Part shown: piece after piece, positions 18,617 through 53,264 of the stretch
How positions within the stretch are numbered: the first letter of the stretch is position 1
Layout of the letters: every line of letters begins with the position of its first letter
Origin: a virus
Virus record (IMG/VR): IMGVR_UViG_3300025889_000152
Location: 1-54,782 of that record
Length of the DNA stretch: 54,782 nt
Strand: one strand, 5' to 3'
Program-made: the position numbers and the translations under genes
The notes under the pieces: generated by a model
Told to the model about the DNA's origin: nothing
What the model saw: the letters and a program-made list of their open reading frames with translations, nothing else
Databases searched by the model: none

Positions 18617-19282
18617 ATGTCGGCAATGATACATAAAACCATAATCGGGGTAGCTCCTCAGCGCCCCACGCCAGCACCCGAATCGCCGCCCCCTAGGTCG
18701 GTCGATCCTTGGGTGGTGCTTCTAATGCTTGCATCAAGCGCGGGGACGTACATCGCTACGCAAGCCCCAAAGCTGTTTAGTAGTCCCCTGTTTGCCAAGG
18801 TCGCGCAAACAGCGATCGCCGATCATCAGGCAAAAACTTCTCTCGAAGTCGCGACTGAATTAACCCAGAATAATCTGCAAATTCAGCAAACCGAGGCAAA
18901 GATTGATGAGCGCCAAGATTTGATTGATTTGCTTAAGCAGGTATTGCTCGAAACCCAGAAAGGGACTAATGAGCAGCAATCGCAAATATTGACCCTATTC
19001 GGGCAGATGATGGCATTGCAAGCAACCCATGCTAAGGCGGCTGAATCTCAGTCTGCGATCGCCGCCCGATTGGAAACCATAGCTACAGCGATCGCTGAAT
19101 CAATTACAATTTTGAATCTCAGTTCAGCCCGTAGCCAAAAGGAAACTACTGAGATACTAAAGAAAGTTGCGGACGGGCAAGAAATTACCCACGAATACGT
19201 GGCAAGCTTAGCAGGTGAATTGCGGGTCAAGCTTGCCGATATTGAGAAGACGATCGTCGATGCGATTAACGCAAAAAAATGA
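18617..19282 (+). CDS. Membrane-anchored coiled-coil protein
   Basis: 221 residues. A Pro-rich start is followed by one membrane helix (about 31-48, PWVVLLMLASSAGTYIAT) and then a long coiled coil rich in Gln, Ala, Glu and Ile. Last gene of the rightward virion block; its stop lies in a strong terminator. The layout would suit a spanin, a membrane-associated lysis factor or an adhesin-associated stalk, but nothing distinguishes these. Confidence 0.5.
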   Translation: MSAMIHKTIIGVAPQRPTPAPESPPPRSVDPWVVLLMLASSAGTYIATQAPKLFSSPLFAKVAQTAIADHQAKTSLEVATELTQNNLQIQQTEAKIDERQDLIDLLKQVLLETQKGTNEQQSQILTLFGQMMALQATHAKAAESQSAIAARLETIATAIAESITILNLSSARSQKETTEILKKVADGQEITHEYVASLAGELRVKLADIEKTIVDAINAKK

Positions 19283-19312
19283 GCTACCCAAATTTGAGTA
19301 GCTCATTTTTTT
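19281..19312. terminator. Bidirectional terminator between convergent genes
   Basis: GAGCTACCCAAA pairs with TTTGAGTAGCTC (19281-19304, one mismatch), followed by ATTTTTTT on the plus strand and by TTTTTTT on the minus strand. It separates the rightward virion block from the leftward HAD/RHH genes. Confidence 0.85.
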
Positions 19313-19508
19313 ATTTAAATTTTGAAAATTTATTTTCAAGGAATTGGCAAATATTCGGCTCGCCTTTGTGAATGCCAATCTCGGTAATAAACCCTTCAGC
19401 GATCGCCGCCTGTTTGAGGCGCTCAATCGTGCCTTTAGGCAAGCGTAGATTAAGTTGGGCGCGATCGCCCTCGCCTTTGGGTCGCCCCTTGCGCTTAGGG
19501 GCTAGGCT
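19311..19508 (-). CDS. RHH domain in -1 frame after HAD gene
   Basis: 65 codons in the -1 frame relative to the HAD gene, reading SLAPKRKGRPKGEGD, then RAQLNLRLPKGTIERLKQAA and a tail ending KFSKFK. The middle has the RHH shape: a basic KGRPKG arm, a beta strand and two helices. There is no ATG, GTG or TTG in frame between the preceding in-frame stop and the conserved part. It joins the HAD frame exactly at the slippery heptamer at 19508-19514. It may be made as a frameshifted HAD-RHH fusion; alternatives are a homopolymer sequencing error or a decayed gene. Confidence 0.6.
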   Translation of the reverse strand, partial: SLAPKRKGRPKGEGDRAQLNLRLPKGTIERLKQAAIAEGFITEIGIHKGEPNICQFLENKFSKFK

Positions 19509-19514
19509 AAAAAA
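19484..19514 (-). promoter_or_regulatory. Candidate -1 ribosomal frameshift signal
   Basis: On the minus strand the HAD frame reads GAT TTT TTA GCC TAG. T TTT TTA is a canonical X XXY YYZ heptamer, the same as in HIV-1. After a 5-base spacer (GCCTA) comes a hairpin with stem GCCCCT/AGGGGC and loop AAGCGCA. Spacing and stem strength match known -1 sites, and the -1 frame encodes an RHH domain. Confidence 0.6.
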
Positions 19515-20005
19515 TCGTTCACATCTAGATACTCGCAGCCTAGGTTAGCGGCAAATTGGCGATCGCTATCTCTGCCATTGGCATAGGCTGGATTGCCTGA
19601 TAGATCGCCTATGTAGTGGGTGATCTTTCTGCTAAACACAGTTTGAGCAACAAACCCCATTCCTGCACGGGGTTTGCGAAAATTCAAAAGGTGATCATCA
19701 AAGTATGTCCACCCTTGTTCTTTTGTGCGCCCCCAGCAACTTTCCCCTTCATCAGGGCAAAAGAAAGCCCCAATAAAGTTAGGCTGTTGTGCCATAAGCC
19801 AATCAAACTGAGCTTTGACCACTTCGAGCGTGGTGTAGCCATGTGAAATACCAGCCTGATTGCTGATAATAATCGAGTTTTTTGGCACTCTAGCAAGGAC
19901 TTCTTCAATCAAGGGCATTTCTGCACCTTGATAGTTTTGCGGGTGTCCTGCGGCGAAATTGCCGAGTTTCCCAGCCAATACTCCATCGCGATCAAAAGCG
20001 TACAT
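19502..20005 (-). CDS. HAD-family phosphatase, PNKP/HisB-like
   Basis: 167 residues in the zero frame. HAD motifs are all present: FDRDGV (nucleophile Asp5 and Asp7), IIISNQAGI (motif II), FRKPRAGM (the Lys of motif III) and IGDLSGNPAYANGRDSD (motif IV). The order and spacing resemble polynucleotide 3'-phosphatases and HisB-N enzymes. Possible roles are repair of 3'-phosphate ends or sugar-nucleotide chemistry. GAGGAG lies upstream, inside the end of the 20012 gene. Its last codons hold the frameshift candidate. Confidence 0.82.
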   Translation of the reverse strand: MYAFDRDGVLAGKLGNFAAGHPQNYQGAEMPLIEEVLARVPKNSIIISNQAGISHGYTTLEVVKAQFDWLMAQQPNFIGAFFCPDEGESCWGRTKEQGWTYFDDHLLNFRKPRAGMGFVAQTVFSRKITHYIGDLSGNPAYANGRDSDRQFAANLGCEYLDVNDFLA

Positions 20006-20011
20006 ATTTAT

Positions 20012-20719
20012 TTACTCCTCATTGGCGGCGAAAAGTTCCCACAGCGCACGGGAAAACCACTCCTCTGCTTTTGCCGAAGCAAAAGATATGGTGTCTTCGT
20101 CAAAGTTTTTTTCAATAGGATCAAAGAATTGAGGCTGGCAAATTGCCTCTTTCATGATCCGTTCTGCGGACCTTCTGTCAGGAACGGAAAAATTTTGGCA
20201 TACTTTCCCATCTAGGAATCGCGTAACTACCCCGTTTTCTACTCGCTCAATGGGGTAGCGCCACGGCGATGGGATTGGATTACTGTCTCGCTGTTTTTTT
20301 ACAATCCAGTCTGACTCAGCCAAGATGTCGGCGGCTGCATCCCAATTGGCTCCATTACACCAATAAACGGTGTCTAAGCCTTTTAGGAAATGCTTGTTTT
20401 TTTGCCCCAAAGCAAAACTAATTGCTTTAGGGCAGCCAAAAATTACGGCTATTAAACACCCTGCCAAGCGCGGGTGAAGCTGATTGATTTGCTCCATTAC
20501 CTTTGCTTCTTCTTTGCTCAGCAGAGGCAATGCACTTAGGCGGTTTCCTTTCCCTGCAAGAAGATCATCTAAGATGATCTTCTCCCTATTCAAGAAGAAT
20601 AGATCGTATTCTTCTTGCACCCGTTGGGTGTCGATGGTCAGGGTTGTGGCTGTTCGTTTCCTATCGCCTTGCCACGTCCATGTAGCAATTGGCGCGTAAT
20701 GTTTTTCTAATTCGGGCAT
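20012..20719 (-). CDS. Hypothetical protein
   Basis: 235 residues, with a strong AAGGAGG 5 bases before the ATG. Mixed alpha/beta composition; a hydrophobic stretch GCLIAVIFGCPKAISFALG near 87-105 is probably buried rather than membrane. There is no catalytic motif I recognise. It is translated just before the HAD phosphatase (6-bp gap), so the two may act together on a nucleotide or nucleic-acid substrate; this is inference. Confidence 0.6.
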   Translation of the reverse strand: MPELEKHYAPIATWTWQGDRKRTATTLTIDTQRVQEEYDLFFLNREKIILDDLLAGKGNRLSALPLLSKEEAKVMEQINQLHPRLAGCLIAVIFGCPKAISFALGQKNKHFLKGLDTVYWCNGANWDAAADILAESDWIVKKQRDSNPIPSPWRYPIERVENGVVTRFLDGKVCQNFSVPDRRSAERIMKEAICQPQFFDPIEKNFDEDTISFASAKAEEWFSRALWELFAANEE

Positions 20720-20759
20720 TTGCGCCTCCTTGACGCTAATTTAATTGCCTTTCGGCAAT

Positions 20760-21060
20760 GCGATCGCTAGGACTCGAACCCAGCTTATAAGCAATCTTTT
20801 CGCCTATGATGTTGCCCTTGGATTGATACTGAGAGGTGATCAAGCTCTCTTTCTCATGGTGCGTCCGTTTTGTCGCACATCCTAAACAATAGGTACTTCT
20901 TCCTAAAGGAATTTTCGCTACGTGGGACTCGATCCCACTTTTAAGGCTACTTCGATTGCTAGACCCTTGCCTTGGTTAAGGGATCGCACGGCGGGTTGGT
21001 GTACCGCCACGCTCTGCCAGATGCAGAGACGGCTCCTTTTGTTTTAAGCCCGTGGAGTCA
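20760..21060 (-). other. Gene-free stretch with tRNA T-arm-like fragments
   Basis: No protein gene is convincing here. The minus strand holds CTGGGTTCGAGTCCTAG at 20767-20783 and GTGGGATCGAGTCCCAC at 20922-20938, both shaped like tRNA T-arms, and a stable GGCGG/CCGCC hairpin near 20990-21008. I could not complete a cloverleaf around either T-arm, so they may be decayed tRNAs or parts of another structured RNA. AGCCC/GGGCT at 21047-21065 may end the upstream leftward gene. Confidence 0.35.
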
Positions 21061-21071
21061 GGGCTAGCAAA

Positions 21072-21803
21072 TTAATCAAAAACTCCTTTTCTAAAATCGT
21101 TTTTGATGCTTTCAATTTCTGTTTGCAAAGCGCGAATCTTTTCCTGAACAATGGACTCATGAGGACGAGCGCCATTGAAGAGGACAACATCAGCAAACAC
21201 TCCTCTAATGATGACGGTGTTTGCATCAGCCCATTTTTGCTGATGTCTTGTCACCCTAAAAGGGCAAACTTGAATGCTGGGGCAAATTCTTTTTAATTCA
21301 TCCCAGCATTCATTTGGTACGAATGCCCTTTTGAACGGAGTTAGTAGGCTCCCATCCATCAGTTCTCGAAACTTGGGGTGCGTTGTGATGATTTTTACGA
21401 TCTCCGCTTTTTGGGCGAAAGTCAAAGGTTTAACGGGTTTTGCACCCAATTCTTGCACCCATTTAATTTCTGTCTCCAATCTAGCAATTGTTTCTTTCGC
21501 CAAGTTGAATCGCCGAATTTCTTCAGCTTGTTTTGCGGCTTCAGTATCCGCAAGTTTTTTCAGGATGTCGCCTAATGGCTTAGAGAAATCCAATCCATTA
21601 GGCGAATCGTAGCGGTGTGCCATGATTAAATCGTGGCGCTGGTTTGGCTTTAGCGATTCCCAGACCGCTCCATTTTCTTGAAGAATGGGCAACAACGCTT
21701 GATCATACCGAATCCACTCTTGTTTCCCTTTCCACTTTATTTCAATGGTTTTTTCACAATTTTGGCACAGCCCTTGAATTCCTTCAATTTTAATTTCAGT
21801 CAT
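21072..21803 (-). CDS. Hypothetical zinc-finger/coiled-coil protein
   Basis: 243 residues from the ATG at 21803, which has AGGAGG at ideal spacing; the longer ORF start at 21827 lacks one. N-terminal CQNCEKTIEIKWKGK could bind zinc with later Cys. A coiled coil spans about 80-125, and the C-terminus is again helical. First gene of a leftward unit with a strong promoter. No family recognised. Confidence 0.6.
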   Translation of the reverse strand: MTEIKIEGIQGLCQNCEKTIEIKWKGKQEWIRYDQALLPILQENGAVWESLKPNQRHDLIMAHRYDSPNGLDFSKPLGDILKKLADTEAAKQAEEIRRFNLAKETIARLETEIKWVQELGAKPVKPLTFAQKAEIVKIITTHPKFRELMDGSLLTPFKRAFVPNECWDELKRICPSIQVCPFRVTRHQQKWADANTVIIRGVFADVVLFNGARPHESIVQEKIRALQTEIESIKNDFRKGVFD

Positions 21804-21845: not shown

Positions 21846-21874
21846 ATATTAAGCGCTTAAATATAATTTGTCAA
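21846..21874 (-). promoter_or_regulatory. Sigma-70-type promoter with palindromic operator
   Basis: On the minus strand: TTGACA (21874-21869), 17 bp, TAATAT (21851-21846), an almost ideal promoter. The 12-bp palindrome TTAAGCGCTTAA (21849-21860) overlaps the -10 box and is well placed for a repressor. It should drive the 21803, 20719 and 20005 genes. Confidence 0.8.
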
Positions 21875-36400: not shown

Positions 36401-36460
36401 ACAAAATACACTACAAACCTATTGACAGCACACATTACATTAGTGTAGTGTCTTTTGTAG
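36401..36460 (+). promoter_or_regulatory. Divergent control region with CACTAC repeats
   Basis: TTGACA at 36422-36427 is a perfect -35; the -10 is weak. ACACTAC (36408-36414) and GTGTAGTG (36443-36450) are inverse copies, and ACTACAAA/TTTTGTAG extend them. Short repeats of this kind suit an RHH repressor, such as the adjacent 36377 gene. Three CCATGAA direct repeats follow before 36515. Confidence 0.5.
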
Positions 36461-50783: not shown

Positions 50784-51198
50784 AACTGCAACTAATTACA
50801 ATGTTGACGCGATCGCCTCTGAACTAACCGAACTTGAGCAACTGAATTTAGATGTTGCAGCGATCGCAGGTTGGACGAACATAGAAGTATGGCAACCAGA
50901 TCGAAATTTGCCTATCAGAACTTTCCAAGGGGAAAACAAAGCGCATCCCAAATTAGGTAAGTTTGTGCCTAAATATGTCGAAAGTATTGATGCGATCGTT
51001 TCCGTTTTTGATGCTTTTGATTTGGATTGGAATATTGGCAAAGATTGCAATGCTTATAATTGCTATGGGCAAGATGACGGGGTTGAGATTATAGATGTGT
51101 ATGCCGAAACTCCCGCGATCGCATTATGCAAACTATTACTTGAGCTAAATCCTAAGCCTGAAACTAAACCAGAAGTCATTGAGGCAACATTCGGATAA
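50776..51198 (+). CDS. Phage ABA-sandwich-like protein
   Basis: 140 residues. AAIAGWTNIEVWQPDRNLPI, YVESIDAIVSVFDAFDLDWN and ETPAIALCKLLLEL follow the pattern of the small alpha-beta-alpha proteins seen in many phages. Overlaps the adhesin start by 1 bp. Function unknown. Confidence 0.5.
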   Translation: MTETATNYNVDAIASELTELEQLNLDVAAIAGWTNIEVWQPDRNLPIRTFQGENKAHPKLGKFVPKYVESIDAIVSVFDAFDLDWNIGKDCNAYNCYGQDDGVEIIDVYAETPAIALCKLLLELNPKPETKPEVIEATFG

Positions 51199-53264
51199 TG
51201 GCAGTAACTTTACCCAACGGATCTTGGAGCTTTGCGGATCTACAAAATAGATACGAAAGGGCCCAATCATTAGCCAATGACTGCATACAAGATTTTGCGG
51301 GTAATTACTTTTTTCCTAGCGATCGCAGTCCAAAGGGCTACTGGACTACATCAAGAAGACAAAAACTTGATTACGTCTGCGATTGCCCTGACTTTGCCAG
51401 ATTGATTGATCAGCAGATGATGAACTCTGCACCTAGCCGATGGGTGCGTAATGACTGGTCAACCAATCCAGACAACAGGAAATTGGTCAATCGCTGTATT
51501 CATTGCTTTGCAGTGGCGATCGCTGAGCGAGAATTAGATCCAAGCTTTCCGATAAACCGAATTTACAGCGCAAAACGTGGGCGATTTCCTAAAACCGACT
51601 GCGGATGTGGATGTGGTGGATCTGGTGGGTGCGGTTGCCCTAGCAAAGAATTGGGCTTACCACCTCCAAAATTAATCCAAGGATGCGATACCGATTGCTA
51701 TGTTGAGCCATTAACCCCTAGAACACAGCGAACTCCGTCAACTACTGAGGGCGTTCCTGCATATCAAACATTTGAACTGCCGACAATTCAGTTTCAGGAT
51801 ATAGAATTTAAAGCTTGTGCTGGCAAAGAAATAACGATTACTTTAGTTAGGTCTACATCGCAGGGATTTAACAACGCGACAGTATCAGGACTGCTAACTG
51901 ATATCGAATTTCCTTTTGAGCCAGAATTTAAAACATCGTCAAAGTCAGTGTTGCTAGATATTTCCCCTGGCGAGTATGTCATCGGCATATCGGCGATCGC
52001 GACTGGCAATTTCGGCGAAAAGACTGAAGCTAAGCTATTAGTATTTGATTGTGACAATCAGAGAAGCAATAGAGATTTTCCGTATCCGCCATGTGAAGAA
52101 CAGGATTTTGTTGAATTTGGGGGCGGCGAATGTGAAGGATCTTATGAAGTTGGCTATCGGCAAACAGGCAATATTAATCCTGATGGTACTTGCGAGCAGA
52201 TAAAGGTACTTAAATTTAATGAAGCATTAGATTGTCCTTCCCCTGAGCCTCCACCACCTAAAGAATGTGAATCCTTGGAAGAACGCGATTGTTCGCCTAT
52301 CGCTCCTGAGCCTCCTAAGTGTGTCAATACTGGTAGTGGTGATGGATTCAACTCTAATGCTGGCTTTAATGCAGTCTTCAAGGTGCGAACTGGTAACAAG
52401 GATATAGAGTATCTGCGCCCTGATAAAAAGGAGTGCATGGAAGTATGCGAGTTCGCGGAAATAGCGGTATTTTCGCCGTCATGTCCAGAGCCTCCGCCTA
52501 AGCCTGTGCCTCCGCCATTTTGCCCATTGCCTATAAATAGGTATATCGGATGGCAGACTGAGGCTGATTATTTAGCATCGGCGGCTGTCAATGGCATAGG
52601 TATTCATGAGACATTCTCATGTGATGACGGGACTGTTTATGTCTTGGTTGGACGACTAGCTAAGTGTTTGCCTCCTGCTAATCGCTATGTCGATAGCTTT
52701 GAAGCGGCAACTTATGACGGCAATAAATTTGGAGAGGGCTGCTGTCCATTCAATGAGACTAAGCCACCTCGTCCAGTATGTCCTGTCAAGCCCAAGCCAG
52801 TGCCAGTTGATAAATGGTCGTGTTCTGGTGGTGTATGCTCACCTGATGCGAACGGAATCTATAACTCACAAGCTGAATGTGAAGCGGCGCTGATACCTGC
52901 CAACTTTACTGGCGGTCAATGCCCTGCCCCTGTCAGATATAGAATTTCGTTTGCTTACGAAGATGCTGGTGGGACAACGTGGTATCAAAATGGCTTTGCC
53001 AGTAGCCAATTTGCTACTACAAACCCCGCAATTACAGGAACGCCTCAAGGTAATTATCTAGGTAAAATCACATCAGTACAAGCTTATGTTGATCCCGTAT
53101 ATCATCCTCTCCTTAAGGCTATCTTCGTTAATGGAGTTTATAACGGATTGTTAGCAGGGCAATATACTTGGTACGTTGTTAACAACTTTAGAGTGTATAG
53201 AATTGAGCGCGTAGATGGACTGCCTGATAACTGCGGCAATCCTCCGCCTACTTGTCCACCTTAA
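51198..53264 (+). CDS. Adhesin/tail-appendage protein (copy 2, complete)
   Basis: 688 residues. N-terminal domain (about 1-120), a Cys/Gly cluster DCGCGCGGSGGCGCP near 135-150, a beta-sandwich (about 185-290), then Pro/Cys linkers alternating with small domains. From 52049 it parallels copy 1 at 3-1292; its variable domain at about 52503-52738 (INRYIGWQTEADYLASAAVN...) is unrelated to that of copy 1. C-terminal domain (ISFAYEDAGGTTWYQNGFAS) is conserved. Probably a host-binding protein with exchangeable modules. Confidence 0.72.
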   Translation: MAVTLPNGSWSFADLQNRYERAQSLANDCIQDFAGNYFFPSDRSPKGYWTTSRRQKLDYVCDCPDFARLIDQQMMNSAPSRWVRNDWSTNPDNRKLVNRCIHCFAVAIAERELDPSFPINRIYSAKRGRFPKTDCGCGCGGSGGCGCPSKELGLPPPKLIQGCDTDCYVEPLTPRTQRTPSTTEGVPAYQTFELPTIQFQDIEFKACAGKEITITLVRSTSQGFNNATVSGLLTDIEFPFEPEFKTSSKSVLLDISPGEYVIGISAIATGNFGEKTEAKLLVFDCDNQRSNRDFPYPPCEEQDFVEFGGGECEGSYEVGYRQTGNINPDGTCEQIKVLKFNEALDCPSPEPPPPKECESLEERDCSPIAPEPPKCVNTGSGDGFNSNAGFNAVFKVRTGNKDIEYLRPDKKECMEVCEFAEIAVFSPSCPEPPPKPVPPPFCPLPINRYIGWQTEADYLASAAVNGIGIHETFSCDDGTVYVLVGRLAKCLPPANRYVDSFEAATYDGNKFGEGCCPFNETKPPRPVCPVKPKPVPVDKWSCSGGVCSPDANGIYNSQAECEAALIPANFTGGQCPAPVRYRISFAYEDAGGTTWYQNGFASSQFATTNPAITGTPQGNYLGKITSVQAYVDPVYHPLLKAIFVNGVYNGLLAGQYTWYVVNNFRVYRIERVDGLPDNCGNPPPTCPP

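Follow-up and report, generated by a model that had tools for sequence, protein, structure and literature searches.

A probable −1 frameshift cassette behind unrelated phage genes may make the last enzyme of an operon its own repressor

The window, as the DNA analysed here is called, comprises the 54,782 bases of a virus record and contains head, portal and terminase genes. It is likely to come from a cyanophage, as judged from its numerous GCGATCGC sites and from a relative of the module described below in Phormidium. Near-duplicate coding sequence lies close to both ends of the record (228-1292 and 51198-53264). An operon running from 21803 to 19311 ends in a gene for a HAD phosphatase (Table 1). 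The protein matches Pfam PNK3P (PF08645, E=3.6e-7) with 30.5 bits, above the gathering score of 22, and its matches to the NCBIfam HAD-IIIA and DNA-3'-phosphatase models are below cut-off; by family it is a PNK3P 3'-phosphatase of predicted activity. Searches with the HAD protein gave a sole, 27%-identical match in phages, two distant cyanobacterial matches in plasmids and none in genome contigs, and a Foldseek search with its structure model (pLDDT 66) found no reliable match (best E 0.085).

Table 1. Features of the operon and of the HAD-RHH junction in the window
Feature	Position	Strand	Basis
Promoter TTGACA-N17-TAATAT	21846..21874	-	shared upstream sequence
Putative operator palindrome TTAAGCGCTTAA, in the spacer and overlapping the -10 hexamer	21849..21860	-	exact 12-bp match
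First operon gene, 243 aa if the start is ATG 21803	21072..21803	-	no Pfam family
Second operon gene, 235 aa, directly upstream of HAD	20012..20719	-	no Pfam or PHROG family
HAD phosphatase, PNK3P type, 167 aa, 0-frame product, complete enzyme	19502..20005	-	Pfam PNK3P
Slippery heptamer T_TTT_TTA, in phase	19508..19514	-	same in L002, L003
0-frame stop TAG, one codon 3' of the heptamer; 5' boundary of the cassette	19502..19504	-	
Hairpin GCCCCT-AAGCGCA-AGGGGC, putative frameshift stimulator	19484..19502	-	
-1 frame: AT-hook-like GRP linker and Arc-like RHH; stop 19311-19313	19311..19514	-	
Codons for QLNLR, predicted DNA-binding strand, Q-x-N-x-R-x-P as in Arc Q9/N11/R13	19443..19457	-	alignment to Arc
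Inverted repeat tgagctactcaaatttgggtagctca, flanked by A/T runs, just past the RHH stop	19280..19305	.	sequence

The HAD reading frame ends in GAT GTG AAC GAT TTT TTA GCC TAG. As the initial annotation had noted, these last codons hold T_TTT_TTA in phase, followed by a 5-nt spacer (GCCTA) and a GC-rich hairpin in which a 6-bp stem (GCCCCT/AGGGGC) closes a 7-nt loop (-11.3 kcal/mol). Taken alone, the hairpin is ordinary for its composition, with 24 of 200 shuffled sequences equally stable. The -1 frame, correctly described in that annotation as lacking a start of its own, is open for 64 codons up to the stop at 19311; its first ATG, GTG or TTG is a TTG located 62 nt beyond the HAD stop codon and past the predicted DNA-binding strand. 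The inverted repeat that follows the frame is a probable bidirectional terminator. A terminator scan omitted it; the repeat exceeds the loop limit of the scan or misses its pairing rule.

The segment encoded in the -1 frame resembles the Arc class of RHH repressors. Its strand AQLNLRLP aligns with QFNLRWP of Arc, where residues Q9, N11 and R13 read the operator (PMC12645479). The window sequence scores 13.3 bits (E=0.075) against Pfam Arc, and none of the RHH profile scores reaches its cut-off (13.3-14.2 bits versus 20.4 for Arc, 15.7 versus 26 for RHH_5). Arc repressor is also the best, weak PDB sequence match (E=1.1), and a low-confidence AlphaFold model (pLDDT 59) places two predicted helices 3' of the QxNxR strand region. 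These weak profile matches, the strand signature and the order of the helices together suggest an RHH domain. Neither the window RHH alone, used as a query for related loci, nor tblastn with the RHH against phages and plasmids gave a match. With dN/dS values of 0.11-0.38 (0.15 for the pair formed by the window and L002, where dS is saturated), the RHH frame is under purifying selection.

Homologues of the HAD gene are present in two IMG/VR contigs, L002 and L003, at 72-74% identity (70-72% in tblastn segments). Both retain GATTTTTTA and the one-codon distance between heptamer and stop, the stop codon itself being TGA in L002, TAA in L003 and TAG in the window. A hairpin of different sequence occupies the same position, with 9 bp arranged as GCCTACAGG-N8-CCTGTAGGC, and the RHH segments are 55% identical to that of the window. 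Conservation of heptamer, spacing and hairpin, the check proposed in the initial annotation, is thus found in both contigs. A -1-frame stop codon adjoins the 5' side of the heptamer in L002 and L003, which confines the shift to three codons.

Seven T residues at the junction would have indicated a simple in-frame fusion, but the run contains six in each of three independent contigs (the window, L002 and L003), and a sequencing slip is therefore rejected by the relatives. The homopolymer at the junction could also hint at a decayed in-frame HAD-RHH fusion, broken by an indel or an error or arising by chance. We consider such an origin so improbable that it can for practical purposes be disregarded, because the frame relation and the heptamer are the same in independent contigs, the frame relation recurs in the genome of a cultured isolate and the RHH frame is under selection.

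The RHH segment is part of a cassette common to unrelated genes, a feature that had escaped the initial annotation. A search of bacterial and archaeal genomes with an RHH alignment located the module in the genome of Phormidium tenue FACHB-1050 (L007), the cultured isolate mentioned above, where it lies in the -1 frame behind a gene for Csx3 (PF09620, E=1e-26) and is preceded by an in-phase C_CCT_TTG. Searching viral contigs with the hairpin sequence yielded three further contigs. L015 carries a second Csx3 (also a PF09620 match) with the cassette and C_CCT_TTG; L012 is the same as L007 in sequence over the module region; and the host gene in L011 encodes an unrelated 80-aa protein, with a 3' end that reads A_AAA_AAG ATC TAG. 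The searched data contain only six distinct sequences (the window, L002, L003, L007, L011 and L015), and all six share the arrangement (in-phase heptamer)-NNN-stop-hairpin-RHH(-1). The heptamer is T_TTT_TTA in the window, L002 and L003, C_CCT_TTG in L007 and L015, and A_AAA_AAG in L011. Sequence comparison places the boundaries of the cassette directly: across different host genes, DNA homology sets in between positions -2 and +4 relative to the stop codon and continues to the end of the RHH, a length of about 190 nt. Over this span L011 and L015 are 93% identical. The three host genes, encoding the PNK3P HAD, Csx3 and the 80-aa protein, are mutually unrelated.

The Csx3/Crn3 genes are located at 2714-3010 in L007, a Phormidium prophage region, and at 869-1171 in the viral contig L015. 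The L007 protein, in which the catalytic residues were checked, retains H57, H60, D69, R71 and H80 of A. fulgidus Csx3. Judged by family, both proteins are likely to act against type III CRISPR.

The window's genes have in-phase X_XXY_YYZ heptamers at 0.54% of their codon positions, and a GC-rich hairpin of at least 6 bp at matching spacing is found at 0.73% of positions. With 13 positions allowed, the chance of three unrelated genes agreeing is about 2e-6. The spacers between heptamer and stem measure 5-7 nt across the sequences, and those of bacterial stimulators are usually 5-8 nt (PMC4066793). The heptamers A_AA.A_AA.G and C_CC.U_UU.G belong to the shift-prone set of E. coli; T_TTT_TTA is absent from that list, which describes E. 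coli and not cyanobacterial ribosomes (PMC4066793). The hairpins of the relatives fold far better than shuffled sequences (z of -3.7 to -4.4), that of the window less so, its stem being rebuilt from other bases than theirs. The outer stem pair of the relatives changes from G-C to A-U with both sides altered. This covariation involves one pair in two of five sequences, the five relatives being invariant at 8 of 10 stem pairs, and 56 of 500 shuffles do as well.

The arrangement is specific to cassette carriers in the comparisons made. Of 28 non-cassette matches to Csx3 in cyanobacterial genomes, none carries a heptamer at 3 nt from its stop codon; the heptamer-hairpin-RHH arrangement is also missing from three further viral Csx3 genes. 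Seven virus records and a 20-kb part of the Phormidium contig contain no second site at which an in-phase heptamer lying 3 nt before the stop is joined by both a GC-rich stem and a long -1 extension. At about 15210 on the minus strand of L063, an in-phase TTTTTTG lies 9 nt before a stop, together with a hairpin of 9 bp and an extension of 269 codons in the -1 frame; this site is possibly a second frameshift site or an interrupted gene.

The identical geometry of six distinct sequences, drawn from three unrelated host genes, decides the case for frameshifting: ribosomes very probably slip by -1 at the heptamer. The programmed HAD-RHH fusion that the initial annotation put forward is thus supported by comparison, and in other host genes different heptamers appear to give access to this -1 RHH frame. 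The T6 run of the HAD genes and the A6 run of L011, each followed by a hairpin, would also suit slippage of the polymerase during transcription on a homopolymer. Six-base runs are short for polymerase slippage, and the longest run in the CCCTTTG of the Csx3 genes is three, which cannot be explained in this way; we regard a transcriptional origin of the fusion as very unlikely.

The RHH could instead be a separate small repressor translated by termination and reinitiation beside the hairpin, with the heptamer incidental. In L002 a TTG overlaps the TGA stop (TTGA), and the RHH of this contig could additionally be started separately from it. That such proteins exist without a fusion partner is evident from a standalone RHH paralogue (L002 1695-1886 and L003 2133-2324), which has its own ATG and is 30% identical to the window RHH. 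Reinitiation is nevertheless quite unlikely as the general mechanism, as is separate translation of the RHH part, considered in the initial annotation. No ATG, GTG or TTG precedes the DNA-binding strand in five of the six sequences, the window and L003 included, and the L007 frame has none at any position. Reinitiation also fails to explain why three different canonical heptamers occupy one and the same position. The paralogue with its ATG has no in-phase heptamer and no hairpin, only the 3' arm of the stem (z of +0.29).

Comparison of upstream regions reveals that every cassette operon is headed by TTGACA-N17-TAATAT with TTAAGCGCTTAA, or a version of it with one substitution, lying across the spacer and the -10 hexamer, an association read from the sequences themselves. 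The palindrome has a single exact occurrence within the window. In the L002 record the promoter-operator combination is present twice, before two adjacent units that lead to the HAD gene. A scan of 2.9 million IMG/VR contigs with the promoter-operator pattern returned four contigs, all of which carry the cassette; a fifth carrier, L015, has a promoter form that is one base longer. The same scan within the order of the host matched one of 38 genomes, namely the carrier, at a site about 0.9 kb upstream of the cassette. The standalone paralogue in L002 and L003 belongs to an operon whose promoter is similar but contains another spacer sequence, and the strand residues of this RHH differ correspondingly; the paralogue may be a second regulator in these phages. 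The coding hairpin was considered as an RHH operator and set aside: its sequence is not that of the palindrome in the promoter, and the window does not share it.

Elsewhere in the operon, a long intergenic stretch (20720-21072, minus strand) contains two hairpins that resemble tRNA T-arms (GTGGGATCGAGTCCCAC and CTGGGTTCGAGTCCTAG). ARAGORN and Rfam found nothing convincing in the operon and left these hairpins uncalled; they are possibly degenerate or decoy tRNA-like elements. A 77-bp piece of this stretch matches part of another phage's Csx3-RHH operon (L069 6501-6425) at 92% identity. At 36422 on the plus strand, a TTGACA promoter-like site with the palindromic-looking spacer ACACATTACATTAGTGT is located upstream of a plus-strand gene cluster and is a possible operator of another regulator.

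Together these features suggest a model in which a portable cassette, in which a stop codon is followed by a stimulatory hairpin and an Arc-like RHH in the -1 frame, sits behind the last gene of a phage operon and adjoins a slippery heptamer in the final codons of that gene. The majority of ribosomes would stop and release the plain enzyme (PNK3P here, Csx3 or the 80-aa protein in other phages). A fraction, aided by the hairpin, would slip back one base on the heptamer and produce an enzyme-RHH fusion, which would dimerize through the RHH, bind TTAAGCGCTTAA in the promoter of its own operon and repress it. The repressor would then be a fixed minor fraction of the enzyme, placing a strong promoter under negative feedback. 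The initial annotation had raised autoregulation, and the shared palindromic operator gives that idea strong new support. From it we infer that the fusion binds the palindrome and represses the operon, which is probable, although common descent of the operons, rather than binding, could account for the association. Csx3 degrades cA4, the messenger of type III CRISPR, and PNK3P could contribute to the repair of RNA or DNA that has been cleaved. Whether the operon products counter host defence, as these enzyme families suggest, is an even call. The model as a whole, including frameshifting at some efficiency, autorepression and a probable counter-defence role, we hold to be fairly likely.

The fusion might instead serve to recruit the enzyme to DNA, such as broken ends, with a genuine frameshift that has no part in operon regulation. 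PNK3P enzymes act on nucleic-acid ends, and an AT-hook-like GRP motif lies 5' of the RHH. The cassette, however, is also attached to Csx3, whose substrate is a cyclic oligonucleotide, and to the unrelated 80-aa protein, and a specific palindrome is found in the promoter of every cassette operon and almost nowhere else. Targeting of an end-processing enzyme to DNA, suggested in the initial annotation, is for this reason not supported, and we judge it unlikely.

The junction resembles those of dnaX and of transposase genes of the IS3/IS911 type, which likewise use an X_XXZ_ZZN heptamer with a stem-loop about 5-8 nt downstream and a C-terminal domain in the -1 frame, or a frame switch near the stop (PMC4066793, PMC5009743). 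In those systems the signal is fixed to one gene family, whereas here one cassette serves three unrelated genes with three heptamers, and the domain it appends resembles a repressor. Phage repressors of the Arc/Mnt type share the QxNxRxP strand and a palindromic operator at a phage promoter; the Arc operator lies between -35 and -10. They differ in that the RHH here would be made only as an extension of an enzyme, with no independent gene, and in that the segment between the predicted helices is longer and the profile match falls below cut-off. The shared operator is also consistent with Aca-like repression of the operon's own promoter. As with the Aca autorepressors, the predicted target is a strong promoter, and in two phages the operon holds a ring nuclease that is likely anti-type III. 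Aca proteins, in contrast, are separate genes, while no independent start is present in five of the six sequences and the repressor would arise by frameshifting, as a tail on the enzyme that the operon itself encodes. The Csx3 proteins match PF09620 as Csx3/Crn3 ring nucleases do, with catalytic residues kept in L007, but they are phage-borne and carry a -1 RHH tail, whereas known Crn3 fusions are to an AAA-ATPase. In a 2025 survey covering 28,114 phage genomes, the portion consulted names AcrIII-1, Csx20 and Csx16 and no Crn3 (PMC12409355); the present loci place Csx3 in phages, where that portion of the survey did not list it.

Our search of open-licence PMC literature found no paper in which ribosomal frameshifting is paired with an RHH domain in such a case, and the initial annotation was likewise aware of no described HAD-RHH frameshift pair. 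Nor did we find there an earlier description of a stop codon, stimulator and repressor carried as a cassette behind unrelated genes. Each element has precedents (frameshift signals, RHH repressors, ring nucleases and Aca-type autoregulation); it is their combination that was not found in this literature.

A programmed frameshift signal is generally regarded as tied to a single gene family. In the present loci the stop codon, the stimulator and the appended domain appear to move as a unit between unrelated genes, with heptamers that differ in sequence and agree in place. By landing in the -1 frame behind a gene that ends in a heptamer, or that evolves one, such a mobile recoding cassette would make the gene its own repressor and could act as an interchangeable feedback regulator of counter-defence operons, a generalization for which we see the arguments on either side as balanced. 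It suggests a compact viral way to couple the dose of a repressor to that of an enzyme, and it predicts a DNA-binding specificity that is directly testable. The cassette and its operator may also be used as bait for new counter-defence genes, with the 80-aa protein of L011 as the first candidate.
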